Below, in pieces: positions 6,300-41,001 of a stretch of DNA of 41,111 bases; position 1 is the stretch's first letter; each line of letters opens with the position of its first letter. Below the pieces are notes generated by a model. It made no database searches and was not told the DNA's origin. It was given only the letters and a program-made list of their open reading frames with translations. A program made the translations under genes and the position numbers. The stretch comes from Candidatus Fibrimonas termitidis (GTDB lineage: Bacteria; Fibrobacterota; Fibrobacteria; Fibrobacterales; Fibrobacteraceae): assembly GCA_001462245.1 (NCBI GenBank), contig LIUG01000107.1:1-41111 (forward strand), in the 5' to 3' direction.

Positions 6300-6301
6300 C
6301 C

Positions 6302-7594
6302 ATGATAAAAAAACTAACTTTTATACTGCTTTGCAGCTTTGCATTTGCAAGTGCCGCTAAGGGGCCGCAATACCGCTCTCTGAGAGTGCATGGCATGGGC
6401 GGCGCTTTTGTTGCTGTTGCCGATAATAAAGACGCTCTCTACTATAACCCCGCAGGCTTAAATCTGATGAACCGCCTAGGAAATTATGAAGAAAATCCGG
6501 ATATGGGCTATATGCCTAGAAAACGCTTTGAATTCCGGCTGATAACCGTATCCGGCTCGCTTCCCGGAAACACAATTACGGATGCCATTGATCTTTGCGG
6601 AGCGCCGAGTATTGGCAAAATTGTGAAGAAAGCTTTATTCTTCGATTTTGGCTATTTTGGTGATGCTAAATGGTGCCCGATATATGAGAACATAATTCCC
6701 GATGATAAGAGTGATTTGCCCGATTCTCTGCAACATAATCAGGATTTGGCAAATAGATTAACTCGGTTTGATAGACAACCGATTGAAATAGGGACGCAAA
6801 TCAGCGTTTTGGAATTTGCCATGCACAATTTCGGTCTTTCGGTGTGGGCAAACACTTCAGTCGCTCCATATGTAGATATGGGTATTTTTGTGCCTTCTTT
6901 TGGCCATGAGCCTGTGCAGGTTGATTTTGCCGCGCAAACAGCATTTGCATTTTCTCCTGTGGATAAATGGTCTGTTGGAATGGGATTAAAAGCCGCAAAA
7001 AGAAGTACGCTGCCGGGGTACGAGTTTTACCCCGAATACAGTCTTGACAGCGTGAACTACGAGAAGGCTTTGGATACTTTGGAAAACCGCTGGGAAGATT
7101 TTGCAGATGACTTGCGCAAATTCAAAGACTTTAATTTTGCCCTTGACTTTGGCGTGCTTTACCAGATAACTCGTGAAATACGCTTGGGAACATCGCTTCG
7201 CAATGTATTTTTCAGCAAACTCGCCGACGAATCCATAACCCCGAATTGGTCTATTGGAGCGATGGCAAGCCCCATGATTTTGCAAAGCAATAGCTGGTGG
7301 GGGCGCAAAGTGAATTTTGCAATGGACTATGTTGATATTTTAGACGGCACCGTAGGCGATATGTTTTTGGCGCATTGGAATTTTGGCGCAGAAGTTGAAC
7401 AAGTAGTAATACCGTTTTTGCTAAAAGTTTCCCTTGGCGGTGGTTTTGAGGGCGGTTATTATGCTTGGAACACCGGTGTTGGCATTGGCGATGCGGTTAC
7501 CATGCGCTTTGGTTCCTATGCGGAAGAAAGAGGTGTAAGAACAGGGCAAAAAGAGCATAGATTTTGGACCGGGGAACTGAGCGTAGGTTTTTGA
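6302..7594 (+). CDS. PorV/FadL-like outer-membrane beta-barrel protein
   Basis: About 430 aa with a signal peptide (MIKKLTFILLCSFAFASAA). It starts its mature part with RSLRVHGMGGAFVAVADNKDALYYNPAGL, the hallmark of the PorV/UPF0164/FadL-related group: a conserved GMGGAFVA turn followed by NPAGL. The remainder alternates hydrophobic beta strands and ends in an aromatic residue (ELSVGF), as outer-membrane barrels do. PorV proteins act as shuttles in type IX secretion and FadL proteins as transporters; the exact role here is not determined. The ATG at 6302 is chosen because it starts the signal peptide; an in-frame ATG at 6287 is the alternative. Its stop overlaps the aroC start (TGATG). Confidence 0.75.
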   Translation: MIKKLTFILLCSFAFASAAKGPQYRSLRVHGMGGAFVAVADNKDALYYNPAGLNLMNRLGNYEENPDMGYMPRKRFEFRLITVSGSLPGNTITDAIDLCGAPSIGKIVKKALFFDFGYFGDAKWCPIYENIIPDDKSDLPDSLQHNQDLANRLTRFDRQPIEIGTQISVLEFAMHNFGLSVWANTSVAPYVDMGIFVPSFGHEPVQVDFAAQTAFAFSPVDKWSVGMGLKAAKRSTLPGYEFYPEYSLDSVNYEKALDTLENRWEDFADDLRKFKDFNFALDFGVLYQITREIRLGTSLRNVFFSKLADESITPNWSIGAMASPMILQSNSWWGRKVNFAMDYVDILDGTVGDMFLAHWNFGAEVEQVVIPFLLKVSLGGGFEGGYYAWNTGVGIGDAVTMRFGSYAEERGVRTGQKEHRFWTGELSVGF

Positions 7595-8538
7595 TGTCCA
7601 GTATTTTTGGAAAATTATTTACAGTTAGTACTTGGGGAGAATCGCACGGAGAGGCTATAGGCGCAGTTGTGGACGGTTGCCCTGCCGGGTTGGAAATCAG
7701 CGAAGAATATATTCAAATTTTTTTAGATCGCCGCCGCCCTGGGCAAAGCGCATTGACAACTCAAAGAAAAGAAGGCGATGCCGTTAAAATTTTGAGCGGA
7801 GTATTTGAGGGCAAAACCACAGGCACCCCCATATCCTTAATCATCAAAAACACAGACCAGCACAGTGCAGACTACGAACAGATAAAAGATTGGTACAGAC
7901 CCGGCCACGCAGACGAAGTTTATGATTCCAAATACGGATTCAGGGACTACCGAGGCGGAGGCAGAAGTTCAGCACGAGAAACAGCAACAAGAGTAGCAGC
8001 CGGTTCCATAGCCAGAAAATTTTTAAACGAAAAATGCGGAACGGAATTCACCGCAATAGTCTGCGGGGAAATTGAAACAGCAATCGAAACGGCTCGCAAA
8101 AACAATGACAGCATTGGCGGCATAATAAATTTAACCATAAAAAATCCGCCGAAAAATTTGGGCGAACCCGTATTTGATCGCACAGAGGCCTTGCTCGCAA
8201 TGGCTATGATGAGCATTCCTGCGACAAAAGGTTTTGAGATAGGCGAAGGTTTTAACGCTGCAAAAATGCTTGGCAGCGAACACAACAAATTAGGCGAAAA
8301 CCACGCAGGCGGAGTTTACGGCGGCATAACGAGCGGCGAGGATATTTTTTGCAGAATTGCATTCAAGCCAACCCCCTCAATTTCAAAGCCGCAAAGAGCG
8401 AAAAACAAAAACGGCGAAATCGGCGAAATATCGATAAAAGGCAGGCACGACCCATGCGTAGCCCTGCGTGCTCCGGTAATTGTGGAAAGCATGGCAGCAT
8501 TGGTTTTAATGGATTTGTGGTTATGTCAGAGCAAATAG
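7594..8538 (+). CDS. aroC: Chorismate synthase (AroC)
   Basis: A 314-aa chorismate synthase, which converts EPSP to chorismate with reduced FMN, the last step of the shikimate pathway. Visible family motifs: FGKLFTVSTWGESHGEAIG at the N-terminus, RRRPGQSALTTQRKEGD, RPGHAD, the FMN site GGGRSSARET, and RHDPCVALRAPVIVES near the end. It is shorter than the usual ~350-360 aa, mainly in the middle and at the C-terminus, but no core motif is missing. The start ATG at 7594 overlaps the stop of the preceding gene by one base. It overlaps scpB by 16 bp. Confidence 0.95.
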   Translation: MSSIFGKLFTVSTWGESHGEAIGAVVDGCPAGLEISEEYIQIFLDRRRPGQSALTTQRKEGDAVKILSGVFEGKTTGTPISLIIKNTDQHSADYEQIKDWYRPGHADEVYDSKYGFRDYRGGGRSSARETATRVAAGSIARKFLNEKCGTEFTAIVCGEIETAIETARKNNDSIGGIINLTIKNPPKNLGEPVFDRTEALLAMAMMSIPATKGFEIGEGFNAAKMLGSEHNKLGENHAGGVYGGITSGEDIFCRIAFKPTPSISKPQRAKNKNGEIGEISIKGRHDPCVALRAPVIVESMAALVLMDLWLCQSK

Positions 8539-9221: not shown

Positions 9222-11788
9222 CCCCCCTGATGCGTCAATACAACGATGTAAAAGCGGCTAACCCCGGCTGCATACTGTTTTTCAGGATGGGAGATTTTTA
9301 CGAACTCTTTGAAGACGATGCAATTATAGCATCAAAGGTTTTGGGCTTAACCCTAACGACCCGCAACAACGGCGGTGCAAAAGAATCCCCCTTATGCGGA
9401 TTTCCCCACCACGCCGCAGAGCGATATGTCCCAAAAATGCTCGCCGCAGGTCACCGAGTTGCGATTTGCGAACAATTGGAAGACCCAAAACTCGCTAAAG
9501 GCATAGTCAAAAGAGATGTGATAGAAGTAATTTCCGCCGGAACAAGTTTTTCCGAAAATAATCTGGATGCAAAGCAATCATCTTATATATGCGCATTCTT
9601 AAAAAGCAAAGACGGAGCGGTTCTCGCCATAGCGGATATAAGCACAGGATATTTTGCAGTCGGTGAGTCCATAGCTGCGAATGTGGAAAGCGAAATAGAA
9701 AGGCGAAGCCCAAAGGAAATTTTAGTGCAAAGCGGAGAAATCCCGGAGAACGTTCAAGGCATAGTGCGCAGAAACAGAATTATGCTAACAGAAATTCCGG
9801 AGCAGCAATTTGAATTTGATTTTTGCAAAAATGTTTTGAAAGGGCATTTTGGCAGTTTTGATTTGCAAAATGATTTTTTGATAAGGGCGGCGGGTGCCCT
9901 TCTTTTTTATATTTTGGAGCAAAAAAAATCGGGACTCAGCCACATAATAAAAATAAACTCCATTCCTTGGAGCGATTACATGGCATTGGACCCGGCAACG
10001 CAACGCAACTTGGAACTAACGGCCCCCCTCCACCCCGAGGACTCAAACTCTACTCTGCTCTCCATTATGGATTTCACAAAAACCGCAATGGGTGCCAGAT
10101 GTTTAAGGGAATGGATTTCCCATCCTTTGGTTTCTTTCGAGAGCATTTCAAACAGGCTCTCCTGCGTGGAAGAATTGGTTGGCAATTCCATGTTTTTAGA
10201 CGACATTGCAGAGGCTATGAAACCCATTCCAGATATGGAACGTGCTATGGGGCGTGTGGGGAGCGGAAGGGCGAATGCCCGTGATGTGCAGAGTTTGGGG
10301 AAATCTCTTTTGCAAGCAGAACGGATAATAGGATGTTTGCAAAATTTGAAGCAGAAAAAATTCGGTGAAATTGCGGAGAAACTCTCCTTAGCAAAGGGCA
10401 AGGGGAAGGAAATTTGTGCTCTCTTAAAAGACGAGTTGCCGCTAACAGTGAGAGAAGGAAATTTAATTCGCCAAGGAGCGAGTGAGGAAATTGAAAATTT
10501 CAGAGAAGAAATTCAGGAAAAAAAGGACTGGATTGCGAATTTGGAAACTCGTGAAAGAGGGCGGCTCGGCATTCCGTCTTTAAAAGTTGGCTATAACAAG
10601 GTTTTCGGTTATTACATAGAGATAACGGCCAGCCATGCACATAAAAAAGTTCCCGATGAATATATCCGCAAGCAAACCTTAACCACCGGTGAACGCTATA
10701 TTACACCGGAGATGAAGGATGTGGAGTCTTTTATTTTGAATGCGGAAAGCAGGCTTTTTGAGAAGGAATACAAGGTTTTCTGCGAGTTGCGAAACAAAGT
10801 GCATGAATGGCGTGCGGATTTGCAAACAATAGCAAATGCCGTATCGGAACTGGACTGCCTTTGCTCCCTAGCCCTAGCCTCACGCAGATATGGGCTTACC
10901 AAGCCCATAGTGAACAATGGCGACAGAATAAAGATAGCAGGTGGCAGGCATCCGGTGATTTCCACTCAGCCCGACATTCAATTTATCCCAAACGAGATAG
11001 ATATTTCAAACAGCGAAACTCGTTTTATGCTAATTACCGGTCCGAACATGGCAGGTAAATCCACATATTTGCGGCAAACAGCCTTAATCACCCTGCTCGC
11101 CCAAATAGGTTCTTATGTGCCCGCAGATTTGGCGGAGATAGGCATTGTGGATAAAATTTTCACAAGAGTCGGGGCAAGCGACAGGCTTGCAAGGGGGCTC
11201 TCAACCTTTATGCTTGAAATGACCGAAACCGCAAATATTTTGCAAAATGCCACCCCAAAAAGTTTGATTCTTTTAGATGAAATCGGGCGAGGCACAAGCA
11301 CCTTTGACGGGCTTTCCATAGCGTGGGCCATAACAGAATTTCTGCACGACACCCCCGAAAAAGCGGCAAAAACCATTTTTGCAACCCATTACCACGAACT
11401 GACAAATCTCATAGAAAACTTAGAACACGCAAAGAATTTTCAAATAGCGGTAAAGGAGAACAACGGAAAGCTTCTATTTCTGAGAAAAGTTTTAGAGGGT
11501 GCCTGTGACTCCAGCTATGGCATTCATGTAGCGGAAATGGCCGGAGTTCCCGACGATGTTGTTCGCCGAGCAAAGCGAATTTTGCTGCGTTTGGAAAAGG
11601 AAAAAATAGACCCAAGCGACGGCGCCCACAAACCAAAAGAAGCTCAACTCTCCTTCTTTGAACCGCCCCCGATGAGCGAAAACACCGAGCTTTTGCTAAA
11701 GGAATTGAAGGCGGTGAACCCGGAAGAGATGACGCCGATACAGGCGTTGCAGTTTTTGGGGAAGATTAGGGAGAATTATGTTGTCTAA
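9218..11788 (+). CDS. mutS: DNA mismatch repair protein MutS
   Basis: An 856-aa MutS with all domains. The mismatch-reading motif is FFRMGDFYELFEDDA (Phe-x-Glu) at the N-terminus. The ATPase has Walker A GPNMAGKST at residues 608-616 and Walker B LILLDEIGRGTSTFDG with Asp687. The dimerisation helix-turn-helix (SYGIHVAEMAGVP) follows. Near the C-terminus, QLSFF at residues 810-814 resembles the beta-clamp-binding motif of E. coli MutS. MutS detects mismatches and recruits MutL. Translation is probably coupled to scpB through the ATGA overlap. Confidence 0.97.
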   Translation: MTPLMRQYNDVKAANPGCILFFRMGDFYELFEDDAIIASKVLGLTLTTRNNGGAKESPLCGFPHHAAERYVPKMLAAGHRVAICEQLEDPKLAKGIVKRDVIEVISAGTSFSENNLDAKQSSYICAFLKSKDGAVLAIADISTGYFAVGESIAANVESEIERRSPKEILVQSGEIPENVQGIVRRNRIMLTEIPEQQFEFDFCKNVLKGHFGSFDLQNDFLIRAAGALLFYILEQKKSGLSHIIKINSIPWSDYMALDPATQRNLELTAPLHPEDSNSTLLSIMDFTKTAMGARCLREWISHPLVSFESISNRLSCVEELVGNSMFLDDIAEAMKPIPDMERAMGRVGSGRANARDVQSLGKSLLQAERIIGCLQNLKQKKFGEIAEKLSLAKGKGKEICALLKDELPLTVREGNLIRQGASEEIENFREEIQEKKDWIANLETRERGRLGIPSLKVGYNKVFGYYIEITASHAHKKVPDEYIRKQTLTTGERYITPEMKDVESFILNAESRLFEKEYKVFCELRNKVHEWRADLQTIANAVSELDCLCSLALASRRYGLTKPIVNNGDRIKIAGGRHPVISTQPDIQFIPNEIDISNSETRFMLITGPNMAGKSTYLRQTALITLLAQIGSYVPADLAEIGIVDKIFTRVGASDRLARGLSTFMLEMTETANILQNATPKSLILLDEIGRGTSTFDGLSIAWAITEFLHDTPEKAAKTIFATHYHELTNLIENLEHAKNFQIAVKENNGKLLFLRKVLEGACDSSYGIHVAEMAGVPDDVVRRAKRILLRLEKEKIDPSDGAHKPKEAQLSFFEPPPMSENTELLLKELKAVNPEEMTPIQALQFLGKIRENYVV

Positions 11789-17691: not shown

Positions 17692-18668
17692 AACAGAGCT
17701 TGCTTGCGGTTTTTTGCGTTGTTTTATTCGGGTGCGAGAATAACATTAACGGCATTGGCTATGACAGGGACGAGGCTGAGTATAAGTGGGGCGAATGGGC
17801 TGACCCTAGATTAATATCCATAGTGGACGATTCTTTGGCTGTTTTGGCGATTTATAAACCTTATTATAAAGAGTGGTATCAATGCGGTTTTGAGGGTTGC
17901 CGTATTGACGAGGAAGTTGCGAATTACCACGTTGGCTTGTTTGTGGTTAATTACAGAGAAAAACGAGAACCTGTGTGGGGAGATACTTTGGATTATGATT
18001 TAAGGATAGCTAAAGATTATTTCAGAGATTCTTCCGTGCTGGTATTTGACAGAAATCGTAATAAGTTCGGTTTTTGGAAAATAGGAACAAAGGAAGTAAA
18101 ATTTGTTGATTATAGCGGTCATGGATATAATGGTTATTTCAATACCAGACCTTTTCCAAACGGGAATGTGCTTTTAATTGGTAAACCGAGTTATATATTG
18201 GACACAGAAAACAGGCAGTTAAAGCAGTTTGAATTTTCCGGGGAATATGAATGGCTGTCTAAATGCGGAAATAGTCGGATTAAAAGAGAATGGGTGTATG
18301 ATGAGGAACAACAGCAAGGTTACTATGATTATAAATATGATTATATGAATATATCCTACATTGGAGGCGAATTGGTTTGCATTAAAGGCAATGAAACGGC
18401 AGATAATTTTGAATTAATCGTAAACAATGCTGTTAAAGATACAAGTAGCCTAAGCAATACTTTTTTGTATGAAAGTATAACAGGTTGGTACGGAATTTAC
18501 GCAAAGGATAAGTCAAATAGAATTCATAAAATTGACACGTTGAATTTCAAATTTGACAGAAATTATGTTCCTATGTATATCGGTGAAGATATTAGTACTT
18601 ATTTTTACGGAAATCAAGGTGGTTCAATGCGTTATTCAACACAGGATTTGCTCGGAGTTAACAATTAG
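17688..18668 (+). CDS. Lipoprotein of unknown function, paralogue A (326 aa)
   Basis: Begins MKQSLLAVFCVVLFGCENN (lipid Cys16). The mature part has many Tyr/Trp/Asp-rich short strands (KWGEWADPRLISIVDDSLAVL, VFDRNRNKFGFWKIG) that recall a beta-propeller or WD-like repeat fold, but no family is recognised. It is clearly homologous over its whole length to the gene at 22412-23377, including the end (STQDLLGVNN), so the two arose by local duplication. Two Cys in CGFEGC are conserved in both copies. Confidence 0.75.
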   Translation: MKQSLLAVFCVVLFGCENNINGIGYDRDEAEYKWGEWADPRLISIVDDSLAVLAIYKPYYKEWYQCGFEGCRIDEEVANYHVGLFVVNYREKREPVWGDTLDYDLRIAKDYFRDSSVLVFDRNRNKFGFWKIGTKEVKFVDYSGHGYNGYFNTRPFPNGNVLLIGKPSYILDTENRQLKQFEFSGEYEWLSKCGNSRIKREWVYDEEQQQGYYDYKYDYMNISYIGGELVCIKGNETADNFELIVNNAVKDTSSLSNTFLYESITGWYGIYAKDKSNRIHKIDTLNFKFDRNYVPMYIGEDISTYFYGNQGGSMRYSTQDLLGVNN

Positions 18669-30036: not shown

Positions 30037-30276
30037 TTTCTGTTATTTGGTAAAGGGGTTAATGATTGGGAAATTGGGAGTGAAGGTGGGGATTTTTGGG
30101 ATGAATGGTGTTTCCGAGGCGTGATGCTAATAGGGACAATGGAAGTTTTGGACGATAAAAAGACGAAAAAAGAAATCTGGAAGGATGAATATGAAATGTA
30201 TTACAAAGGCGGCAGAGATGCGGAAAACGGTAGATATTATAGTAATTTTCGTTCGGAGGATTTTGGGGTGGAATGA
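30037..30276 (+). pseudogene. 3' remnant of a flavin split-barrel (PNPOx-like) gene
   Basis: An open frame from 30037 to TGA 30274-30276 encodes about 79 residues. Its second half (MLIGTMEVLDDKKTKKEIW, DEYEMYYKGGRDAENGRY) resembles the end of pyridoxamine-phosphate-oxidase-like general stress proteins, where a GxMEVLDD strand is followed by a helix and MYYPGG. The N-terminal half of such a protein is missing and there is no sensible start, so it is read as a decayed remnant left between nhaD and cas9. Family assignment is moderate. Confidence 0.4.
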
Positions 30277-30328: not shown

Positions 30329-33300
30329 ATGAAAAAAATACTCGGTTTGGATTTGGGAACCAGCAGCATTGGCTGGGCGTTGGTGAACGAAGCGGAAAAT
30401 GATGAGGAAAGCTCTTCAATTGTTCTGTTGGGAGTCAGAATTATTAATTATGATAATTTTGTCAGCACAAAAACAGGGAAGGAATCAAAGGAGCCGGAAA
30501 AAGATTTCGCAGGCGGTAAAGGAATTTCTCCTAATGCAGGAAGAACTCTCAAGCGTAGTATGCGCCGTAATTTGCAACGGTATAAACTTCGCCGTGAAAA
30601 TTTGATAGAAATCTTGAAAGAATACAAATTTATTTCTAACGAAAGCATTTTGTCTGAAAATGGCAATAGAACTACTTTTGAAACATACCGTCTAAGAGCC
30701 AAAGCGGCTAAAGAAGAAATTTCGCTGGAGCAATTTGCCCGCGTGTTACTGATGATAAATAAAAAACGTGGTTATAAAAGTAGTCGCAAGGCAAAAAATA
30801 CTGAAGAAGGAACTTTAATAGACGGAATTGAAATAGCAGAAGAATTGTACGATAGAAATTTAACTCCCGGAGAATATTGTTTGGAACTTTTACGGAAAAA
30901 TACAAAAGCATTGTTACCTGATTTTTACCGCTCTGATCTACAAACAGAATTTAATAGAATTTGGGAAAAACAAAAGGAATTTTATCCTGACATATTGATT
31001 GTGCAATTAAAAGAAAATTTACAAGGTAAAAATGAAAAACAAACTTGGGCTATTTGTAGAGAACCTTTTGGTATAGTTGGTGCTAAAAGAAATGGAGATA
31101 AAGGAGAACAAGAAAAAGAAAATTATGAATGGCGAGCAAAAGCCTTAAATGAAAAAATAGATTTAGAATATTTAGCTATAGTTTTACAAAAGATAAATTC
31201 GCAAATAAATGGTAGTAGTGGTTATTTGGGCAAAATCAGCGATAGAAGCAAAGAACTTTATTTTAATAAACAAACTGTTGGGCAATACCTAATGGCAATT
31301 TTAGATAAAAATTCAAATACAAGTTTACGAAATATGATATTTTATCGTCAGGATTATTTAGATGAATTCGAAACTTTGTGGAGCAAACAAGCAGAATTTC
31401 ACATAGAATTGACAGAAACTTTAAAAAAAGAAATTAGAGATGTAGTAATCTTCTACCAACGTAAATTAAAAAGTCAAAAAAATTTAATAAGTTTCTGCGA
31501 ATTTGAAAATCGTAAAATTGAAGTTGAAATTGACGGGAAAAAAAAGATAAAAATCATTGGAAACCGTGTTATTCCTCGTTCTTCACCTTTATTTCAAGAA
31601 TTTAAAATTTGGCAAATTTTAAACAACATTGAAGTTACAGATAAAAATTCAGGTGAGATTACACTTTTAAGTAAAGAAGAAAAGGAAAAATTATTTGCTG
31701 AATTACAAAAAGCAGAGAGTTTAAGCACAAAAAAAGCATTGGAAATTTTATTTGAAAAAAGAGCAAAAAATTATTCAATAGAGAATTATAAAGAAAAAAT
31801 AGAAGGCAATAAAACAAGAGCGAAAATTTGCGAAATTTTGAACAAAACTTTAGCAGACGAGAAACTAAATGAACTTTGGCATTTGCTCTATTCTTGGGAA
31901 AGTGAAAATTCAAATTTGGCTGAAAAACTAGAAAAAAAATATGTTTATCCATCAGACATTGCAAAGAAACTTTCCAATATAACTTTTTTGGATGATTATG
32001 GGAATCTATCTGCAAGGGCAATTAAAAAAATCTTACCTCATCTAAAAAATGGTAAACAATATAACGAAGCGTGTGAACTTGCGGGTTATGCATTCTCTAA
32101 AAGTTCTTTAACAAAAGAACAAATTGAAAATAAAATACTCAAAAATAGATTGGAAATTTTGCCAAAAAACTCTTTGCGAAATCCAGTTGTGGAAAAAATT
32201 CTTAATCAAATGGTAAATGTTATAAATTCCATAATTGATATTTATGGCAAACCTGATGAGATTAGAATAGAATTAGCAAGAGAATTAAAAAAGGGGGCAA
32301 AAGAAAGAGAGGAAATGGCTGCCAGCATAGCATATGCAACAAAAGAAAATGAAAGAATAAAAAAACTTTTGCAGTCTGCTCCATTTAACATTGCAAATAC
32401 AAGTAAAAACGATATTATTCGTTATAAATTGTACGAAGAACTCGCAAGCAATAGCTATCGTACTCTGTATTCAAATACTTATATACCTCAAGAAAGCTTA
32501 TTTACCAAAGATTTTGATATTGAGCATATAATTCCGCAATCTCGGCTTTTTGATGATTCTTTTAGTAATAAAACTCTAGAAAAAAGGCAAGAAAATATAG
32601 AAAAAGGAAATTCTACTGCCTATGATTGGATGGCTAAAAAAGGCGAAAAAGAATTAGCAGATTATGAAATAAAAATTAAAAATCTTTTTGACCAAGAAAA
32701 AATTTCACGTGCAAAATATAACAACCTTAAAAGGAGAGAAAAGGATATTCCTGATGATTTTATTGATAGGGATATTAGAGATACTCAGTACATAGCAAAA
32801 AAGGCACGAGAAATGTTACAGGAGTTAGTCAGAGTTGTTGTACCTACAACTGGTTCGGTCACGGCTCATTTGCGTGAAGATTGGCAGTTGGTAAATGTTA
32901 TGCAAGAATTAAATTTTCCAAAATATGAAAGACTTGGACTTGTAGAAGAAATAGAAAACAAAGATGGACAAAAAATTAAGAGAATAAAAGAATGGACAAA
33001 ACGAAATGATCACCGACATCATGCAATGGACGCACTAACAGTTGCTTTTACAAAATATGCTCATATTCAATTTTTTAATCATATAAATTCACATTATGAT
33101 TCTACAAGTGAAATTTATGGTATAAAACAAAAATATTTTACTAATGACAATAAAGCATTACCGCCAATCCCATTAAAAAATTTTAGAGTAGAAGCAAAAA
33201 AACAATTGGAAAAGATTTTGGTTTCTATTAAGGCAAAAAATAAAGTTGTCACTACAAATATAAATAAGGTAAATAATCAAAAAACATTAACACCAAGAGG

Positions 33301-34306
33301 ACAATTACATAATGAAACTATTTATGGTAGCCAAAAACAAAATGTAGTAAAAGAAGAAGCTATAAATGCAAAATTTAATGAAGCGAAAATTTTGACAGTA
33401 ACCAAACTCGCATACAGAGAGGCATTATTAAAACGTTTACGAGAAAACGAAAATGATCCTAAAAAAGCGTTTACGGGGAAAAATAGTTTAGCCAAAAATC
33501 CGATTTATTTAGACAATATGCATACGAAACAGATGCCGGAAAAAGTGAAGACTGTTACATTTGAAATCGTTTATACAATTCGTAAACCAATAGATAAAGA
33601 TTTAAATGTAGAAAAAGTTGTTGATGTAAAAGTAAGAGAAATTTTGAAAGATAGATTGAATAAATACAATAATGATCCGAAAGAAGCGTTTGTCAATATA
33701 AAAGAAAATCCGATATGGCTGAATGAAAAAAAAAGGATTTCTATAAAGTATGTAACTATTTTCGGTGTAAGTAATGTCGAAGCATTACACGATAAGCATG
33801 ATAAGGACGGCAATAAACAGCCAGTTGGTTTTGTAAGTACCTCCAATAATCACCATGTAGCAATTTACCGTGATGAAGACGGAAATTTACAGGAGAATGT
33901 AGTATCGTTTTATGACACTGTTAAAAGAGCCAATGCGGGTTTACCTGTAATAGATAAGGAATATAAGCAAAGCGAGGGCTGGCAATTTCTTTTTACTATG
34001 AAACAAAACGAATATTTTGTTTTCTCGAATGAAAAAACAGGGTTTGACCCGAAAAAAGTTGATTTAATGAATCCTGAAAATTATCATTTGATTAGCCCAA
34101 ATCTATTTAGAGTACAAAAAATTGCCTCAAAAAATTATATGTTTAGACATCATTTAGAAACTAAAGTATCTTTTGAAACTAAGGAAATGGAAAAACAATT
34201 AAGAGGAATTGCTTGGGAGTTGTATCAAAGTACGGAAAAACTAAAATATATTGTAAAAATTCGTGTTAATCACATTGGGCAAATTATACAAGTTGGAGAA
34301 TACTGA
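30329..34306 (+). CDS. cas9: CRISPR-associated endonuclease Cas9, type II-C
   Basis: A 1325-aa Cas9. RuvC-I is ILGLDLGTSSIGWAL with Asp8; an Arg-rich bridge helix follows (RSMRRNLQRYKLRRENL). RuvC-II is EIRIELARELKKG with Glu648. HNH is FDIEHIIPQSRLFDDSFSNK with Asp730, His733 and Asn756. RuvC-III is DHRHHAMDALTVAF with His898 and Asp901. All nuclease residues are intact, so it should cut both strands. The C-terminal WED/PAM-interacting part contains two related modules (1029-1048 and 1102-1121). Absence of csn2 and cas4 and the cas9-cas1-cas2 order give type II-C. The frame is open to 30185, but the conserved N-terminus begins at ATG 30329, which has no ribosome site. The gene is visibly more AT-rich than the flanking housekeeping genes. 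Confidence 0.97.
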   Translation: MKKILGLDLGTSSIGWALVNEAENDEESSSIVLLGVRIINYDNFVSTKTGKESKEPEKDFAGGKGISPNAGRTLKRSMRRNLQRYKLRRENLIEILKEYKFISNESILSENGNRTTFETYRLRAKAAKEEISLEQFARVLLMINKKRGYKSSRKAKNTEEGTLIDGIEIAEELYDRNLTPGEYCLELLRKNTKALLPDFYRSDLQTEFNRIWEKQKEFYPDILIVQLKENLQGKNEKQTWAICREPFGIVGAKRNGDKGEQEKENYEWRAKALNEKIDLEYLAIVLQKINSQINGSSGYLGKISDRSKELYFNKQTVGQYLMAILDKNSNTSLRNMIFYRQDYLDEFETLWSKQAEFHIELTETLKKEIRDVVIFYQRKLKSQKNLISFCEFENRKIEVEIDGKKKIKIIGNRVIPRSSPLFQEFKIWQILNNIEVTDKNSGEITLLSKEEKEKLFAELQKAESLSTKKALEILFEKRAKNYSIENYKEKIEGNKTRAKICEILNKTLADEKLNELWHLLYSWESENSNLAEKLEKKYVYPSDIAKKLSNITFLDDYGNLSARAIKKILPHLKNGKQYNEACELAGYAFSKSSLTKEQIENKILKNRLEILPKNSLRNPVVEKILNQMVNVINSIIDIYGKPDEIRIELARELKKGAKEREEMAASIAYATKENERIKKLLQSAPFNIANTSKNDIIRYKLYEELASNSYRTLYSNTYIPQESLFTKDFDIEHIIPQSRLFDDSFSNKTLEKRQENIEKGNSTAYDWMAKKGEKELADYEIKIKNLFDQEKISRAKYNNLKRREKDIPDDFIDRDIRDTQYIAKKAREMLQELVRVVVPTTGSVTAHLREDWQLVNVMQELNFPKYERLGLVEEIENKDGQKIKRIKEWTKRNDHRHHAMDALTVAFTKYAHIQFFNHINSHYDSTSEIYGIKQKYFTNDNKALPPIPLKNFRVEAKKQLEKILVSIKAKNKVVTTNINKVNNQKTLTPRGQLHNETIYGSQKQNVVKEEAINAKFNEAKILTVTKLAYREALLKRLRENENDPKKAFTGKNSLAKNPIYLDNMHTKQMPEKVKTVTFEIVYTIRKPIDKDLNVEKVVDVKVREILKDRLNKYNNDPKEAFVNIKENPIWLNEKKRISIKYVTIFGVSNVEALHDKHDKDGNKQPVGFVSTSNNHHVAIYRDEDGNLQENVVSFYDTVKRANAGLPVIDKEYKQSEGWQFLFTMKQNEYFVFSNEKTGFDPKKVDLMNPENYHLISPNLFRVQKIASKNYMFRHHLETKVSFETKEMEKQLRGIAWELYQSTEKLKYIVKIRVNHIGQIIQVGEY

Positions 34307-34328: not shown

Positions 34329-35231
34329 ATGATTAAACAAACACTTGATTTTTCCAATCCTGCTTATTTGAGCACTTCAAATGCTCAACTTGTAATCAAA
34401 ACATCGGAAAAAACGATAACCCGCCCAATAGAAGATATTGGTGTTGTAATATTAGATAATCAACAAATTACAATTACACAAAGTGCAATAGCGCTATTAC
34501 TGGAAAATAATGTGGCAATAATAACAACGAATTCAAAACATTTACCAGTTGGGATGTTTTTAAATTTAGACGGTAACACATTACAAAGCAATAGGTTTCA
34601 AAAACAAATAGAAGCGAGTGAACCGCTCAAAAAGTCGCTCTGGCAGCAAACTGTACATGCAAAAATTATAAATCAGGCTGCAGTTTTAAAACGACAAGGC
34701 AAAGATATCAAACGATTGGATTTTTTGGCAAATACCGTGAATAGTGGAGATACAAATAACTGTGAAGCACAGGCAGCATCTTATTATTGGAGTCTTGTTT
34801 TTGAAAATTATATTCAAAATTTCTCTCGTTCACCAGAAGGTGAGCCGCCAAATAATCTGCTTAACTATGGATATGCGATAGTCAGAGCTGCAATTGCCCG
34901 TGCCTTAGTTGGTTCCGGGCTTTTGCCAACATTTGGAATTTTCCATAAAAATCAATACAATGCATACTGCTTAGCAGATGATATTATGGAACCTTATCGT
35001 CCTTATGTGGATTTAGCAGTACTTGGTTTACTTGGAGATTTATCCTTGGAACTAACTTCTGAAATAAAAAAACATCTCTTAAATATTCTTGCCTGCGATT
35101 GTTTTTTTGAGCGAGAAAAAAGCCCTATGCTTGTGGCTTTAACTCGCACTACATCATCTCTTGTTGCGTGTTTTGAAGGAAAAAAGAAAAAGATACTATA
35201 TCCGAGAATTTATGAACCTAAGTGCTCTTAA
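34329..35231 (+). CDS. cas1: CRISPR-associated integrase Cas1
   Basis: A 300-aa type II Cas1. An N-terminal beta domain (LDFSNPAYLSTSNAQLVIK) is followed by the helical catalytic domain with the metal ligands Glu146 (NNCEAQAASYYW), His206 (GIFHKNQYNAYCLADD) and Glu221 (DIMEPYRP). With Cas2 it integrates new spacers at the leader-proximal repeat. It starts 23 bp after cas9 and overlaps cas2 by 20 bp, so the three genes form one operon. Confidence 0.97.
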   Translation: MIKQTLDFSNPAYLSTSNAQLVIKTSEKTITRPIEDIGVVILDNQQITITQSAIALLLENNVAIITTNSKHLPVGMFLNLDGNTLQSNRFQKQIEASEPLKKSLWQQTVHAKIINQAAVLKRQGKDIKRLDFLANTVNSGDTNNCEAQAASYYWSLVFENYIQNFSRSPEGEPPNNLLNYGYAIVRAAIARALVGSGLLPTFGIFHKNQYNAYCLADDIMEPYRPYVDLAVLGLLGDLSLELTSEIKKHLLNILACDCFFEREKSPMLVALTRTTSSLVACFEGKKKKILYPRIYEPKCS

Positions 35232-35550
35232 CCAATACCGTATTATGTGGATAATGGTATTTTTTGACTTGCCTACCGAAACCAAAGAGGATAAGCGGAG
35301 GCATGCTCAATTTCGGAAAGACCTTATAAAAGATGGTTTTGTTATGGGGCAACTTTCCGTTTATTGGCGACACTGTGCAAGCAAGGAAAATATGGAAGTT
35401 CATATTGAGCGTGTCAAAAAATTTTTACAACCAAATGGCAAAGTTTGCATTTTGCACTTAACAGACAAGCAGTTCGGTGATATGCAAATCTTTTATGGCA
35501 AAAAAGACAGCCTACCTCCGGTAGGTCCGGTACAGTTGGAGATGTTTTGA
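35212..35550 (+). CDS. cas2: CRISPR-associated protein Cas2
   Basis: A 112-aa Cas2 of the type II kind. The ferredoxin-like core begins MWIMVFFDLPTETKEDKR, with the conserved FDLP Asp, followed by FRKDLIKDGFVMGQLSVYWRH and VCILHLTDKQFGDM. ATG 35212 is inside the end of cas1; an upstream in-frame ATG would only add residues translated from the cas1 end. It is the structural partner of Cas1. Its last codons contain the presumed tracrRNA promoter. Confidence 0.95.
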   Translation: MNLSALNQYRIMWIMVFFDLPTETKEDKRRHAQFRKDLIKDGFVMGQLSVYWRHCASKENMEVHIERVKKFLQPNGKVCILHLTDKQFGDMQIFYGKKDSLPPVGPVQLEMF

Positions 35551-35563
35551 AATTTTGTATATT
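35536..35563 (+). promoter_or_regulatory. Candidate tracrRNA promoter
   Basis: TTGGAG at 35536-35541 and TATATT at 35558-35563 are 16 bp apart, overlapping the last codons of cas2. The predicted start, near 35570, falls exactly at the first base of the anti-repeat. Confidence 0.6.
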
Positions 35564-35569
35564 TATCGT

Positions 35570-35667
35570 TAATGAAACCAATTCACAATAAGGATTATTC
35601 CGTTGTGAAAACATTTAGTGCCTCGGCTATCTCTGGGGTGTGCCTCTCTGCAAAGAGAGGCATTTTT
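35570..35667 (+). ncRNA. tracrRNA
   Basis: The anti-repeat AATGAAACCAATTCACAA (35571-35588) is perfectly complementary to repeat positions 2-19 of the minus-strand repeat, and the next base allows a G-U pair. It is followed by AAGGATTATTCCGTT, a nexus-like hairpin region that parallels the AAGGCTAGTCCGTT of the well-known SpCas9 tracrRNA, then a TTGTG that can pair with CACAA. The RNA ends in a perfect 9-bp hairpin with a GCAA loop and five T's (35641-35667). Size is about 98 nt. The position between cas2 and array and the complementarity fix crRNA synthesis on the minus strand. Confidence 0.9.
35641..35667 (+). terminator. Intrinsic terminator of tracrRNA
   Basis: TGCCTCTCT, loop GCAA, AGAGAGGCA, then TTTTT. 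It is the strongest hairpin in this stretch and also forms the 3' end of the tracrRNA. Confidence 0.9.
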
Positions 35668-35748
35668 ATTTCAAATAAAGCTGATTATTAAAATTTAGGT
35701 TGTTTAGAGCCTCACTTGCAAGGTCTTTCAATGTTTTAAAATAAGAAA

Positions 35749-35783
35749 CGGATTCTAGATTTCCCTAAAATCCGCTCTTTTTT
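35749..35783. terminator. Second, probably bidirectional terminator before the array
   Basis: CGGATT (35749-35754) pairs with AATCCG (35769-35774), with three further inner pairs across one C-A mismatch, followed on the + strand by CTCTTTTTT. On the minus strand the same hairpin is followed by TTTCTTATTTT, so it can also end precursor crRNA transcripts coming out of the array. Confidence 0.65.
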
Positions 35784-35811
35784 GTATTTCTAAGAGCCTC
35801 CATAAGTGGCT

Positions 35812-35832
35812 CAAATTAGGAAAGTTACAAAC
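35812..35832 (-). repeat. Degenerate, inverted CRISPR-repeat fragment next to the array
   Basis: The + strand CAAATTAGGAAAGTTACAAAC resembles the minus-strand repeat part TAAATTAGGATTGTTCGCAAC (15 of 21 positions), so it is in inverted orientation relative to the neighbouring first repeat, seven bases away. It may be a decayed repeat or chance. Confidence 0.35.
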
Positions 35833-35838
35833 ACAAAG

Positions 35839-37004
35839 GTTGCGAACAATCCTAATTTAGAAAAAATGAAACCAATTCACAACCTGCGAACAGATGCGAA
35901 CGAACCTACGTAGTTGCGAACAATCCTAATTTAGAAAAAATGAAACCAATTCACAACTCAAGCACGATGCAAGGCACATTAGCCATCGTTGCGAACAATC
36001 CTAATTTAGAAAAAATGAAACCAATTCACAACCTATGATGACTGCGTAAAAGCACTTATGGGGTTGCGAACAATCCTAATTTAGAAAAAATGAAACCAAT
36101 TCACAACTAATTCGGATGCCGTGCTTAAAACTGAATGTTGCGAACAATCCTAATTTAGAAAAAATGAAACCAATTCACAACGGGTGGGAAGAGTTTATGA
36201 ATCTTATAATCGTTGCGAACAATCCTAATTTAGAAAAAATGAAACCAATTCACAACAATAGTTGAGGTAGTCGCGGATGCGATTGGTTGCGAACAATCCT
36301 AATTTAGAAAAAATGAAACCAATTCACAACCGACATTCCATATAATACTTGCAGAAAGCAGTTGCGAACAATCCTAATTTAGAAAAAATGAAACCAATTC
36401 ACAACGCAAATATCCGTATATCATTTTATCCCCCCGTTGCGAACAATCCTAATTTAGAAAAAATGAAACCAATTCACAACCAACTGGCCTGGGATTGTAT
36501 TTTCCGCAAGTTGCGAACAATCCTAATTTAGAAAAAATGAAACCAATTCACAACTGGTGTAAGTGGCGTAGGAATTTGGCAATTGTTGCGAACAATCCTA
36601 ATTTAGAAAAAATGAAACCAATTCACAACCTCAGGTCAAGGTGTATGTGCTCAGTTCCGGTTGCGAACAATCCTAATTTAGAAAAAATGAAACCAATTCA
36701 CAACGGCGCTGTCTACACTTTCTACAGAAACTTTGTTGCGAACAATCCTAATTTAGAAAAAATGAAACCAATTCACAACCTTCCTGCATTAGGATCCCAA
36801 ACTTTTTTTGTTGCGAACAATCCTAATTTAGAAAAAATGAAACCAATTCACAACAGAACAGGCTACGTATGGAAATGCGGGCATGTTGCGAACAATCCTA
36901 ATTTAGAAAAAATGAAACCAATTCACAACGGTATAAAGCCGATGATGGAGATGGAGACGGTTGCGAACAATCCTAATTTAGAAAAAATGAAACCAATTCA
37001 CAAC
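35839..37004 (-). CRISPR. CRISPR array, 16 repeats of 45 nt and 15 spacers of 29-30 nt
   Basis: Repeats read on the + strand from GTTGCGAACAATCCTAATTT to AAACCAATTCACAAC. All 16 appear identical, starting at 35839, 35913, 35988, 36063, 36137, 36212, 36286, 36361, 36436, 36510, 36585, 36660, 36735, 36810, 36885 and 36960. Eleven spacers are 30 nt and four are 29 nt. The tracrRNA shows that the functional strand is minus (repeat 5' end GTTGTGAATTGG), so transcription runs towards cas2. The repeat is longer than the common 36 nt; long repeats of ~45-48 nt are known in II-C systems of the Bacteroidetes side. There is no leader: the last repeat abuts phage-like coding DNA at 37005. Confidence 0.98.
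36975..37003 (-). promoter_or_regulatory. Promoter inside the CRISPR repeat (shown for the last repeat; present in all 16)
   Basis: On the minus strand each repeat holds TTGTGA (repeat positions 2-7) and TAAATT (positions 25-30), separated by exactly 17 bp. A start ~7 nt further would fall at about position 37, giving a transcript with the last few repeat bases, the spacer, and the next repeat. Repeat-embedded promoters are established for the type II-C array of Neisseria meningitidis. Confidence 0.6.
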
Positions 37005-38815
37005 GCGTTGGCTTGGCCTACTCCCCCAGCTATTGCGGGGTTGGGATTGATACTTTTGATTGTGCCGGGTCGCGCATTCTCAAGTTTTTTTACTGCGGAG
37101 GCTATCGTTCTTCCGGTCAAATTATCCGTAAGCGGTTTTCTTATTCCTTTTCCTGTAAAGAAATTATTGTCGCCCCTAAGCTGTTTAAATGTTTGTCCGT
37201 CAACGCTTTCCCCCAGATTGTTTGCTATGTTCATCCACTTTACGCGCTCGCTGAAATCTGTCCCAAATGCTTTGTCAAATTCTTTCAATTGCTCAAGCAA
37301 TTTTGTTTTGCGATTATTTCCTTCTATATTTTCAAGATTTTTGGCAAGTCTGTCCTGTGCTGTATTTTTGTTTTCCGGAACTCTCAAAGCGTCAAACAAA
37401 GCCTCTCTTGCGCCCAGCTTGCCCGCCATTGCTCTATACGCTTCTACCGCAGCCGTTTCGCCTTCGGTTTCCGCTATGTTCATAAGCTGGTTTCTTAGAT
37501 TGAAATAAGCGTCTTTGAGAGCCTTAACCTCGCCGTCCGGCCTTCCCATCTGCTCCCGCTTGAAATCATCTTCCAAAAGCTGGCCTATGCGCTGGCGGGC
37601 ATTGTTAAGCTCCTTTGCGGTCATTTCCCGTACTTTCCTAGGTGGGTTTTTGCTTCTTGCTATTTGCTGCCCCTCAGCATTGAATAAAACGGGCTTTTCC
37701 GTTTTAACCTCAAACACGCTTTCTGGAGCCGGAGCTTTGGGTTTCTGTTCGTAAAATATCTCCGCTTCTTTTGGCAGCCGTCTTTGTGTGGCTTCCTCTA
37801 TTGTTGTCAAACCGCCGCCACCCGCCTCTTCTAAAACACGCTTTTCATATTCGGTTAAATTCTTGACTGCAGCTTCCGGCTTTACCTTGGTTTGCGAGCG
37901 GTCTAAAAATTCTTGCACGGTTTTATTCTCTGGAAACTTCCCTTCGTCAAAATGCTTGTAATCTATAAGGTCTTCTGCAATCTGGGCTTGCGTTTTGTAA
38001 TTCTGCGGCATTTTCGCCCTGCCTTCCGGCGTGGCTGCCGCATTCAAAAATTCCGGCTTCACATTGTTTTTGTTTGCCAGCCTTAACAGCAGTTTGTCAA
38101 ACTCCGCTTGGCTTAAACCGCGGCCTAGCAGTTTAGCCGCTCCTTGCAGAACGGTATTTGTCGCCGCGCCCATAACAATATCTCTGTCTAATTGCATGTC
38201 GTCTGTTGTAACTACAGGTCTTGCTAATCCCATTGCCGCTCCGCCGGCTGCGCCTTCAACCGCGGGTTTTGCGACATTGTTCAGCAATACCGACGCCGCT
38301 TTATTTTTGATGGCGTTTCCTAAATTTCCAAGGCCCGGTATTTTAACCGGAATAGCTGCACCCGGTATAAGCAAAGGGTCTCTAATTACGCCTTGCGCTA
38401 TATCTCCCAGAGTGCTACGTTCCCTATCATTCGATTTGGCTTCGCCTAAGGATTGCATATAATCTTCATAAAAGCTATTGTCGCCCATCACCCCGTCAGC
38501 AATAGCACCAATTGACCTGCCGCCAAGGCTTAGCATATCGTCCGAACCGGATTTTGTTATGAAAGGCTTTTCGCTCTTTCTTGCGATTTCGTCCGCAGTT
38601 CTCGGAAAATATTTAGACAACAAGGGATTATCCGCCTCTATTTGTTTTTTGCGAGCTGCTTCTATTTCATGCTCTTGGTATTCTTGAGGAGTATAAATTT
38701 CAAACTCAGAAGGATCAAGTTCTGATTCCAACAGTAATTTAGTTACATCATTTTTGCTTTCTCGATCCCTTATTTCAATGCTACCATCAACTTTGTCAAT
38801 TATAAAGAACTTCAT
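36998..38815 (-). CDS. Phage-like structural/ejection protein, ending inside the CRISPR repeat
   Basis: A 605-aa protein. GGAGG lies six bases before the ATG. The first ~90 residues are acidic; a Gly/Ala-rich, partly hydrophobic region follows (LIPGAAIPVKIPGLGNLGNA, VEGAAGGAAMGLARPVV), then long charged helices (TAKELNNARQRIGQLLEDDF). Such composition is usual for phage internal virion or DNA-ejection proteins, but no family is recognised. The last codons read GQANA-Leu-stop, where Leu and TGA come from the first bases of CRISPR repeat 16. The native C-terminus may therefore be cut off or replaced. Confidence 0.6.
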   Translation of the reverse strand: MKFFIIDKVDGSIEIRDRESKNDVTKLLLESELDPSEFEIYTPQEYQEHEIEAARKKQIEADNPLLSKYFPRTADEIARKSEKPFITKSGSDDMLSLGGRSIGAIADGVMGDNSFYEDYMQSLGEAKSNDRERSTLGDIAQGVIRDPLLIPGAAIPVKIPGLGNLGNAIKNKAASVLLNNVAKPAVEGAAGGAAMGLARPVVTTDDMQLDRDIVMGAATNTVLQGAAKLLGRGLSQAEFDKLLLRLANKNNVKPEFLNAAATPEGRAKMPQNYKTQAQIAEDLIDYKHFDEGKFPENKTVQEFLDRSQTKVKPEAAVKNLTEYEKRVLEEAGGGGLTTIEEATQRRLPKEAEIFYEQKPKAPAPESVFEVKTEKPVLFNAEGQQIARSKNPPRKVREMTAKELNNARQRIGQLLEDDFKREQMGRPDGEVKALKDAYFNLRNQLMNIAETEGETAAVEAYRAMAGKLGAREALFDALRVPENKNTAQDRLAKNLENIEGNNRKTKLLEQLKEFDKAFGTDFSERVKWMNIANNLGESVDGQTFKQLRGDNNFFTGKGIRKPLTDNLTGRTIASAVKKLENARPGTIKSINPNPAIAGGVGQANAL

Positions 38816-38843
38816 GCTGCCTCCTTAAAGATTAGGGGAAATC

Positions 38844-39113
38844 TTATTTCTTTTTGTTTATTATTTTTTGGTCTATGAAGGCCAAGGATAAAATCCAAAC
38901 GCAGTAGAATAGGAATGCGCACATTCCGTGCCAAAGCGCCGGAACTCTTGCTATCGCACCTCCGCCCCCTACACCATCGGGAGGCGGTTGCTCCACAAGC
39001 AGGCTTAGCAAAATAGCGGGAATAATGCCCAGCAGATACAGCGATGTTTCCAACGCGCCTTTCTTGGCTTTGAAGTAATTTGCTATAACGCGCCTCATAT
39101 CTATAATATACAT
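38844..39113 (-). CDS. Small two-TM membrane protein, holin-like by context
   Basis: An 89-aa protein with a basic N-terminus (MRRVIANYFKAKKG), two hydrophobic segments (about 21-41, LYLLGIIPAILLSLL; about 58-80, CAFLFYCVWILSLAF), a Gly-rich loop (DGVGGGG) and a Lys-rich tail. This topology fits a class II holin or another small phage membrane protein; that is inference. Start choice is uncertain: the only ribosome site (GAGG) is five bases before an ATG in another frame (39123) and fifteen before ATG 39113; ATG 39098 is a further option. The other frame (38812-39123) shows no membrane or domain signal. Confidence 0.55.
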   Translation of the reverse strand: MYIIDMRRVIANYFKAKKGALETSLYLLGIIPAILLSLLVEQPPPDGVGGGGAIARVPALWHGMCAFLFYCVWILSLAFIDQKIINKKK

Positions 39114-39130
39114 TTTTTTTCATAAAAACC

Positions 39131-40537
39131 TCATTTTTTTAATTTGCTTAACCTTCTATCTACTTGCTTCTCTTCCGTATTAGGATAGCGATTTCTCAAA
39201 CGCTTTATAGCCGCGTCAAATTCCCTTTGTGCAAGTTTTTTATTTTGGCCGGTTATTATTTCCCAAATTCCCTTTGTGGTTGGATCTATGCCGGCTTTAT
39301 TCAAAATATCGTTGTAAGTTGGGTCCAGCTGCGCTATATCTGCCCCATTGTTTTCCAAATTGGGATTGTTCCATATAATGGATTTAATCAGGTTTATATC
39401 CGATAATTCGTTATTTTCTTTTCTCTCGGAGAACCCCGCCGATCTCTTAGCGGCTATAAGAGCTAACCGCTTCGTCTCTTCTTCTATTTCACGAATAGTT
39501 TTTCCTGAATTTTTAGCAATTTCGCCTTTCCATTGTTCTTGTGCCGTTTTCTTTTGATTGGGGTTAAGGTTATAACTATCGGCCCAAATTTCAAAATCAA
39601 CGGGAGAAAAATCTTTTGCATTGCCCACTGATTTTTTCAAATCAAGTTTTGCTTGGATGTCAAAATCTTTATAATCATCCGCCTCGAGCGTGTTGCTGGA
39701 CTTACTTGTTTGCATTGACTTGCCAGCATCACCCTTTTCGCCCATACCCGAAACGCCTATGAATGTACTACCTCTTATTTTCTGGTTACCCATCAGAGCG
39801 GTCAAATATTCGCGGGCTTGCTTTTCACGGTTGCTCTGGGCTTGGTACTGTCCTTGTAAATCGTTTATCTGTTCATCAAATTCAGATGCCGCCTGAATAG
39901 CCGCTTCTTCTCTAGTGTAATTACCACTCGCATACAATTGATTATAGCGACTTGTCCGGTTTGCCATAGCCGAGTTAAGACTTGCAAGGCTGCTCTGCTT
40001 CTTGCTCTCAGCTTCCCACAATAGCCTCTGGGCGTTGTTAGCGTCATCCTGCAATAATTTGTTCTCTGATAATTCTCTATTTAAATTCTGCTCTTCCAAT
40101 TTATACTCCCTGTTCGTCAAATCGGCAAGCGCCGTCTGGTCGTATGGCAAGCCCATCATCATGTTTTGGTACTGCTCAATCGCGAACTTTTCCCTGTCCC
40201 AGTCCTTCTTGTCCCAGTTGACGGCGTTTTTTCCGAAGTCGAGGAGCCTTCCGCCGCCGTCTTTGGCCAGCCCGAACGCTTTTGTGAAGAAACCCGGCTC
40301 CTTGGGCGGCTCCGCCGGCTTGGGCAATGCGGGCCGCGCCTCCGACGCAGGAGCGGGCATCCCAAACGGCGCGGGCCGGGTCGTTGCGGGCTCCCCCGAG
40401 GGAACTCCCCGGCCGCCCCCGAAACTCGTCATAATCTCTTTGTAAATGCCCGGCTCGTTCTGCTGCCCCCAGTGCATAGCCTCCAAAATATCTTCTTGGC
40501 TAAGTTGGTCAAATTTCGAAGTTCCGTAGTTTTCCAT
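39131..40537 (-). CDS. Phage-like coiled-coil protein with Pro/Ala-rich linker
   Basis: A 468-aa protein starting MENYGTSKFDQLSQEDILEA, with AGGAG nine bases before the ATG; the start lies 11 bp after the stop of the upstream gene. Residues ~45-85 form a Pro/Ala-rich linker encoded by unusually GC-rich DNA. The centre is helical and Gln/Asn/Glu-rich (LEEQNLNRELSENKLLQDD, QINDLQGQYQAQSNREKQAR) and the C-terminus is basic (RRLSKLKK). It looks like an internal virion or tail-associated protein, but no family is recognised. It contains a stretch nearly identical to part of the CRISPR repeat (39351-39371). Confidence 0.6.
   Translation of the reverse strand: MENYGTSKFDQLSQEDILEAMHWGQQNEPGIYKEIMTSFGGGRGVPSGEPATTRPAPFGMPAPASEARPALPKPAEPPKEPGFFTKAFGLAKDGGGRLLDFGKNAVNWDKKDWDREKFAIEQYQNMMMGLPYDQTALADLTNREYKLEEQNLNRELSENKLLQDDANNAQRLLWEAESKKQSSLASLNSAMANRTSRYNQLYASGNYTREEAAIQAASEFDEQINDLQGQYQAQSNREKQAREYLTALMGNQKIRGSTFIGVSGMGEKGDAGKSMQTSKSSNTLEADDYKDFDIQAKLDLKKSVGNAKDFSPVDFEIWADSYNLNPNQKKTAQEQWKGEIAKNSGKTIREIEEETKRLALIAAKRSAGFSERKENNELSDINLIKSIIWNNPNLENNGADIAQLDPTYNDILNKAGIDPTTKGIWEIITGQNKKLAQREFDAAIKRLRNRYPNTEEKQVDRRLSKLKK
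39351..39371 (+). repeat. CRISPR-repeat-like sequence inside a phage-like gene
   Basis: TTTTCCAAATTGGGATTGTTC matches positions 20-40 of the minus-strand CRISPR repeat (TTTTCTAAATTAGGATTGTTC) at 19 of 21 bases. Both differences are transitions and fall at third codon positions of the phage gene, which reads NNPNLE here, the same peptide the repeat would encode in that frame. Confidence 0.5.
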
Positions 40538-40548
40538 GCCTATTGCTC

Positions 40549-41001
40549 CTAATGCGATCTCTTTTCCTTGTCTTGCTCGAATGAAATGAATGTTTTGAAC
40601 GAGCCGCTCAGTTCCGAAACCTTGTCCGAAATATCTCCCAGCCTCTTCCCGAATGAGGCCAGCGAATCGAACATCTTCACGAAATTTTCGTCTATCCGCT
40701 TGAACTGGTTTTCGTAGTATTTGTCCATGTTGTTGTGAAGCTCCATGTGCGAATCCTGCCAAGCCTCGTTTTTGTCTTTGGATTTTGACCGCTCCTTGCG
40801 GTCAAGGTATATATAAGCCATTATTCCTACCACCAAAACAAAAAGCATTATGTGCAGAAAACCTTGGTTGCTGGCCTGCGCCACCACGCCTAAAATGCCC
40901 GTGGCGTCCGCCGTGCCTGCAATCGTTCCTGTTATGTCATTGTCCATGCTTGTAATTTTATCAGCCGAAAATGCTTTGGCTCGAGAACGTGGGTCTCCCA
41001 T
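40549..41001 (-). CDS. Single-TM protein with C-terminal coiled coil, phage-like
   Basis: A 150-aa protein. One membrane segment (FLHIMLFVLVVGIMAYIYL) is followed by a charged region and a long coiled coil (NMDKYYENQFKRIDENFVKM, FGKRLGDISDKVSELSGSF). The layout recalls BhlA-type holins or Rz-like lysis proteins, but homology is not clear. Starts at 41001 (MGDPRS) or 40947 (MDNDITG) are both possible; neither has a good ribosome site. The frame stays open, without another ATG, up to a stop near 41098, so a non-ATG start upstream cannot be excluded. Confidence 0.5.
   Translation of the reverse strand: MGDPRSRAKAFSADKITSMDNDITGTIAGTADATGILGVVAQASNQGFLHIMLFVLVVGIMAYIYLDRKERSKSKDKNEAWQDSHMELHNNMDKYYENQFKRIDENFVKMFDSLASFGKRLGDISDKVSELSGSFKTFISFEQDKEKRSH

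Follow-up and report, generated by a model that had tools for sequence, protein, structure and literature searches.

Junction of a type II-C CRISPR array with a phage-type gene in a draft genome of Candidatus Fibrimonas termitidis: a probable assembly passage from spacer to protospacer

In a draft genome of Candidatus Fibrimonas termitidis a CRISPR array of perfect repeats passes directly into DNA of phage type, and a gene of that DNA finds its stop codon inside the last repeat. This raises the question of whether the junction records an event in the chromosome of the bacterium or was made during assembly. The window analyzed here is the whole of one contig (C107 of genome G000), 41111 bp in length, and the genome to which it belongs is a draft of 211 contigs, 93% complete and 4.6% contaminated. 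The initial annotation offered four options for the junction, namely phage integration, aberrant insertion of a long phage fragment as a giant spacer, deletion of the leader together with a prophage end, or a false assembly join. It is the last of these that we favor, with a real recombination or deletion less probable, and the argument turns on the polarity of the array, on its probable extent and on the exact base at which the foreign DNA begins.

The locus has the anatomy of an ordinary type II-C system. The effector is a Cas9 with RuvC and HNH domains (30329..34306, plus strand; 1325 aa from the ATG at 30329, within a longer ORF that opens at 30185; TIGR01865 with 530 bits, PF18541 RuvC_III and PF13395 HNH_4), whose gene is preceded by that of a citrate transporter (PF03600) and followed directly by type II cas1 (34329..35231, plus strand; TIGR03639 with 302 bits, PADLOC Cas1_II with 379 bits) and cas2 (35245..35550, plus strand, in an ORF that opens at 35161; TIGR01573 with 66.5 bits, PADLOC Cas2_II). 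Besides cas9 these are the only cas genes, csn2 and cas4 being absent, and the interval between cas2 and the array holds no further cas ORF. It does hold a predicted tracrRNA (35561..35670, plus strand), with an anti-repeat at about 35561-35590 that matches the array repeat and a terminator hairpin at 35640-35663 that was recovered by a terminator scan. The array itself (35839..37004, with the crRNA on the minus strand) consists of 16 identical 45-nt copies of the repeat GTTGCGAACAATCCTAATTTAGAAAAAATGAAACCAATTCACAAC, the first starting at 35839 and the last occupying 36960-37004, and of 15 spacers of 29-30 nt.

Pairing of the plus-strand tracrRNA with the minus-strand repeat, in a duplex of -26.5 kcal/mol, indicates that crRNAs are made on the minus strand and run towards cas2, just as the initial annotation had it. 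From this direction it had taken the distal end of the array to be a leader end that had lost its leader. Nothing leader-like indeed follows 37004 up to the contig end, but a conserved leader is recognizable at the other end, beside cas2, in the sequence that separates the tracrRNA from repeat 1 (35671..35838), where conservation reaches right up to the repeat. Identity over this sequence amounts to 82-85% with the three sister genomes G007, G009 and G010 and to 80% with G107, which belongs to a different genus within the family, in alignments of 144-180 bp that include repeat 1, and the sequence is conserved among sister genomes that differ in their spacers. It contains a terminator-like hairpin on the minus strand (35746..35777), a 14-bp stem followed by a T-rich tail, which is retained in three sister genomes and shows pair changes in G007; reading against the direction of cas2, this hairpin would stop pre-crRNA leaving the array. 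By analogy with published systems the end beside cas2 would also be the one at which spacers are acquired, as a published account of type II-C systems places acquisition at the 3' end (PMC12638026). Position 37004 thus lies on the old, trailer side of the array, where the absence of a leader needs no explanation, and the proposal that the junction there is the site that Cas1-Cas2 attacks has to be given up.

Comparison with related genomes indicates that the array is incomplete in the assembly and that 37004 is not its natural end. The sister arrays are longer, with 41 full repeats in G010 and 79 + 26 on two contigs in G009, that is at least 105 over both. In G010 and G007 a degenerate terminal repeat lies 29-30 nt beyond the last full repeat, with 15/15 and 38/45 matching bases respectively, matches that were unequalled in 5000 random positions; these degenerate repeats at the far side and the conserved leader at the cas2 side both agree with acquisition beside cas2. 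In the window no degenerate terminal repeat is found beyond 37004 (P 0.25-0.87), nor any further repeat in the 4.1 kb up to the contig end. Continuation of the array on another contig of the same genome was considered and rejected, as there is no repeat start with up to 3 mismatches outside C107, and the exact repeat has no match in species-level contigs or in IMG/VR. Synteny likewise yields no true trailer: the distal flank of the G010 array is a DNA-repair-like gene pair (TIGR03915/TIGR03916), whose counterparts in the present genome lie on C6, C33 and C149, none of them adjoining an array. A second array of the genus is likewise broken by assembly, namely that of G009, the nearest named relative, a Candidatus Fibrimonadaceae metagenome-assembled genome with contig names of MEGAHIT style (k119_...); there the array is divided between a contig that ends inside a repeat (C108) and one that starts exactly on a repeat (C118). 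As a separate observation, the G010 array (L028, G010:C43) carries one spacer twice, at 6084-6113 and at 8181-8209, 28 units apart.

The contig C118 of G009 has the look of a second fusion of array and phage. After the perfect repeat that closes its array part (L130, 1-1915) come other DNA and, further on, a phage tail module. We rejected it as a parallel on the basis of a faint terminal repeat 31 nt after the last repeat (9/15, P 0.02; 12/20, P 0.006), of the roughly 1.2 kb of other sequence that separates the array from the module, of the decayed state of the module and of the TIGR03916 gene that follows, as it does in the G010 trailer; more likely, the contig preserves a true trailer that has a prophage remnant close by. 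The decayed module, recognizable by a tape measure protein (L130, 3111-6434), lies between the array trailer and TIGR03916 and interrupts TIGR03915, the partner gene, about 20 codons from its start. A repeat-like sequence at its phage/host edge, CGAACAATCC, was also set aside, being part of the decayed TIGR03915 gene.

Turning to the junction itself, the 605-aa ORF of phage type (36998..38815, minus strand) does end inside repeat 16, with its last sense codon TTG at 37001-37003 and its stop TGA at 36998-37000, and the coordinates given for it in the initial annotation are confirmed. That the last repeat supplies the stop is equally true, but there is nothing special in it: the repeat closes all three minus-strand frames (VVNWFHFF*, L* and CELVSFFLN*), so that any gene entering from the far side ends in the repeat and the stop is uninformative, the chance of the reported frame being about 1 in 3. 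The base at which the sequence changes is another matter. Repeat 16 is perfect up to its last base at 37004, and 37005 is already foreign DNA, which places the switch exactly at the boundary of repeat and spacer, whereas a random break would fall on that base in about 1/75 cases.

The C-terminus of the ORF was compared with its homologues, as had been suggested. These are found on C40 (61%) and C51 of the same genome and on C50 of G009 (46%), and are confined to this genus among the 113 genomes of the order that were searched. All three extend roughly 29-70 aa past the last shared block, and all retain a P-x-I/H-Y-x-R/N-P motif that the window protein does not reach. In this comparison of four sequences in total, the conserved tail of the three homologues is missing from the 605-aa protein; the junction therefore probably cuts the gene and leaves it truncated at the C-terminus, and a natural protein end at this residue is disfavored because all three homologues continue.

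Beyond the 605-aa ORF the segment encodes, on the same minus strand, proteins of 103 aa (38812..39123) and 543 aa (39131..40762), neither with a family match, and of 150 aa (40549..41001); the 543-aa and 150-aa proteins are 69% and 94% identical, respectively, to proteins at the end of C65 of the same genome. None of the family databases recognizes the 605-aa protein, and relatives of the phage genes of the window are absent from the annotated phage collection, PHROGs, Pfam and IMG/VR. A phage origin of the 605-aa family is supported by C51, where genes for a portal and a major head protein are likewise present. Related segments of phage type lie beside host genes on C65, next to rpsI/rplM at 19 kb into the contig, and on C40, which makes integration of such DNA in this genome plausible; on C40 and C51 the homologue of the 605-aa gene is not the terminal gene. 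On C65 the segment begins beside an apparent 5' half of a tRNA-Val(CAC), near rpsI/rplM (L031 ~6270-6340; contig 18270-18340), a possible attachment site, although the half was judged by eye and ARAGORN finds no complete tRNA there. The window at 40098-40961 and L031 at 9609-10487 consist of 93%-identical phage-type DNA, and once the two are aligned, C107 and C65, which are contigs of one draft genome, end no more than 150 bp apart, which suggests that the assembly forked there.

The phage family represented in the window is a CRISPR target in the genus: spacer 31 of G009 matches the phage contig C50 at 27/30 bases, 20 of them contiguous. Furthermore, exact pairs of spacer and target coexist within single draft genome bins. 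An example is spacer 1 of the window (35884-35912), leader-proximal and presumably the newest, which matches C137 of the same genome at 29/29 bases (L065, 2861-2889) and is either a self-targeting spacer or evidence of a foreign contig in the bin. Its target is a gene for an 881-aa nucleotidyltransferase-like protein on a 4-kb contig. Perfect or one-mismatch self-matches of spacers were also seen in sister genomes, at 6167 of L108 (G009:C7) and 6112 of L109 (G009:C116), and at 2262 and 9797 of L107 (G010:C5); the target site on C116 falls within DNA conserved across at least six further genomes of the genus. About 10 protospacers that were collected showed no clear PAM motif.

These observations suggest how the junction could have been formed. 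We consider it fairly probable that the assembly passed from the unfinished array into a phage that is identical to the next spacer over 30 bases. With the growing end of the array at the cas2 side, the contig would run through repeat 16 into a spacer of about 30 nt (37005-37034, minus strand) identical to a protospacer in a phage of the same sample; at that point the assembly would cross from spacer to protospacer and stay in the phage for the 4.1 kb that remain to the contig end at 41111. The true array would then continue from 37005-37034 into GTTGCGAACAATCC (repeat 17), and the apparent fusion of gene and array would be a phage gene cut exactly at the protospacer edge, with its PAM side replaced by the repeat. 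The putative spacer 16 comprises the 30 nt that directly follow a perfect repeat, the place at which the array calls for a spacer of 29-30 nt. Its start at the boundary, the targeting of this phage family by arrays of the genus and the coexistence of exact pairs in single bins are together the grounds for reading it as both spacer and protospacer, and a shared spacer requires the switch to follow the last base of a perfect repeat, which fits the boundary observed. As no phage copy running past 37005-37034 was found in the genome itself, in 11 genus mates or in IMG/VR, the copy in the window being the only one, we infer both the identity of these 30 nt as spacer and protospacer and the role of the assembly in making the junction. 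Against this proposal, contigs normally break where a shared 30-mer creates a branch, and joining needs the loss of two alternative edges. Spacer 1 and C137, which are identical over 29 nt and yet remain unjoined, make it clear that identity alone forces no chimera.

The same boundary could also have arisen in the cell. Here Cas9 guided by spacer 16 would have cleaved the phage within the protospacer, 3 bp from its edge, and the phage end would have recombined with spacer 16 over the roughly 27 nt of identity, the distal array and trailer being lost as the other end joined elsewhere. Such an event predicts both the exact repeat boundary and the polarity seen, with the PAM side lost and a repeat in its stead, but any contig that includes the leader side of the array must show this polarity, which hence does not discriminate. 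The intact phage ORFs of the window and the related segments integrated beside host genes on C65 and C40 are in its favor; the far side of the segment lies beyond the contig end, and we found no precedent in the open-access literature, of which our coverage was partial. We regard it as unlikely, and still greater reserve attaches to the view that Cas9-cleaved phage ends recombine with their own spacer, whereby spacers would serve as short homology landing pads that capture multi-kilobase phage DNA while the older array is lost. If instead a prophage integration or a deletion had brought phage DNA beside the array, the first 30 nt would be plain phage sequence with no spacer match. The C65 segment that ends near host genes, beside the apparent (by eye) tRNA-Val 5' half, and the decayed tail module 1.2 kb beyond the G009 array are in keeping with this. 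However, a random breakpoint would meet the exact repeat edge in only about 1/75 cases, no 11-mer that might form an attachment core is common to the window junction and the C65 boundary, the 605-aa gene appears cut, unlike a site-specific phage end, and its homologue is not terminal on C40 or C51; integration or deletion is accordingly quite improbable, and a prophage at a site-specific attachment site was rejected on the missing 11-mer and the probably truncated terminal gene.

An assembly chimera need not have involved a spacer at all, and a chance low-coverage join or a scaffolding error would be in keeping with a draft assembly of metagenome type with contamination and with a point 4.1 kb from a contig end. 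The exact repeat boundary would then be a coincidence, and there is no run of N in the sequence at the junction, so that we give this form of artefact little credence. Least probable by far is the giant spacer, that is the aberrant insertion by Cas1-Cas2 of a long phage fragment at the leader-repeat junction: a phage-type segment does abut a repeat, but the leader lies at the opposite end of the array, which removes this option along with any other that invokes Cas1-Cas2 at a leader junction, and no repeat is seen within 4.1 kb. Considered by kind, an artefact in one form or another is likely, and a real rearrangement of some kind rather unlikely.

If the junction is an artefact, then a draft contig in which a perfect CRISPR repeat gives way to phage genes, with no terminal repeat in between, should be suspected of a jump from spacer to protospacer. 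Such jumps would simulate phage integration and wrongly assign a phage to a host bin, and they also name a host-phage pair. If the junction is real, it would represent a new route for phage DNA into a bacterial chromosome. The anatomy of this type II-C locus further shows that the direction of the crRNA gives no clue to the location of the leader, which here lies beside cas2, with pre-crRNA predicted to read out through the conserved terminator within it.

Known systems offer parallels both for the error and for the anatomy. CRISPR repeats give collapsed, fragmented or chimeric contigs in short-read metagenome assemblies (PMC6617893); the passage proposed here belongs to the same class of error, those chimeras being driven by repeats and the present junction, in our reading, running via a spacer and its protospacer. 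The type II-C locus of Riemerella anatipestifer CH-2, like that of the window, has cas9-cas1-cas2 only, with repeats of 45-47 bp and spacers of about 30 bp, and new spacers have been shown by experiment to enter it at the cas2 side, where in the window acquisition is predicted; the tracrRNA lies upstream of cas9 in that organism and between cas2 and the leader in the window (PMC6008519). The II-C array of Flavobacterium columnare belongs to a different phylum and has repeats of 36 bp as against 45 bp, but it is transcribed towards its leader, and it resembles the arrays considered here in having the terminal repeat at the leader-distal end and a repeat that begins with GTTGT at its leader-distal edge (PMC8092290).
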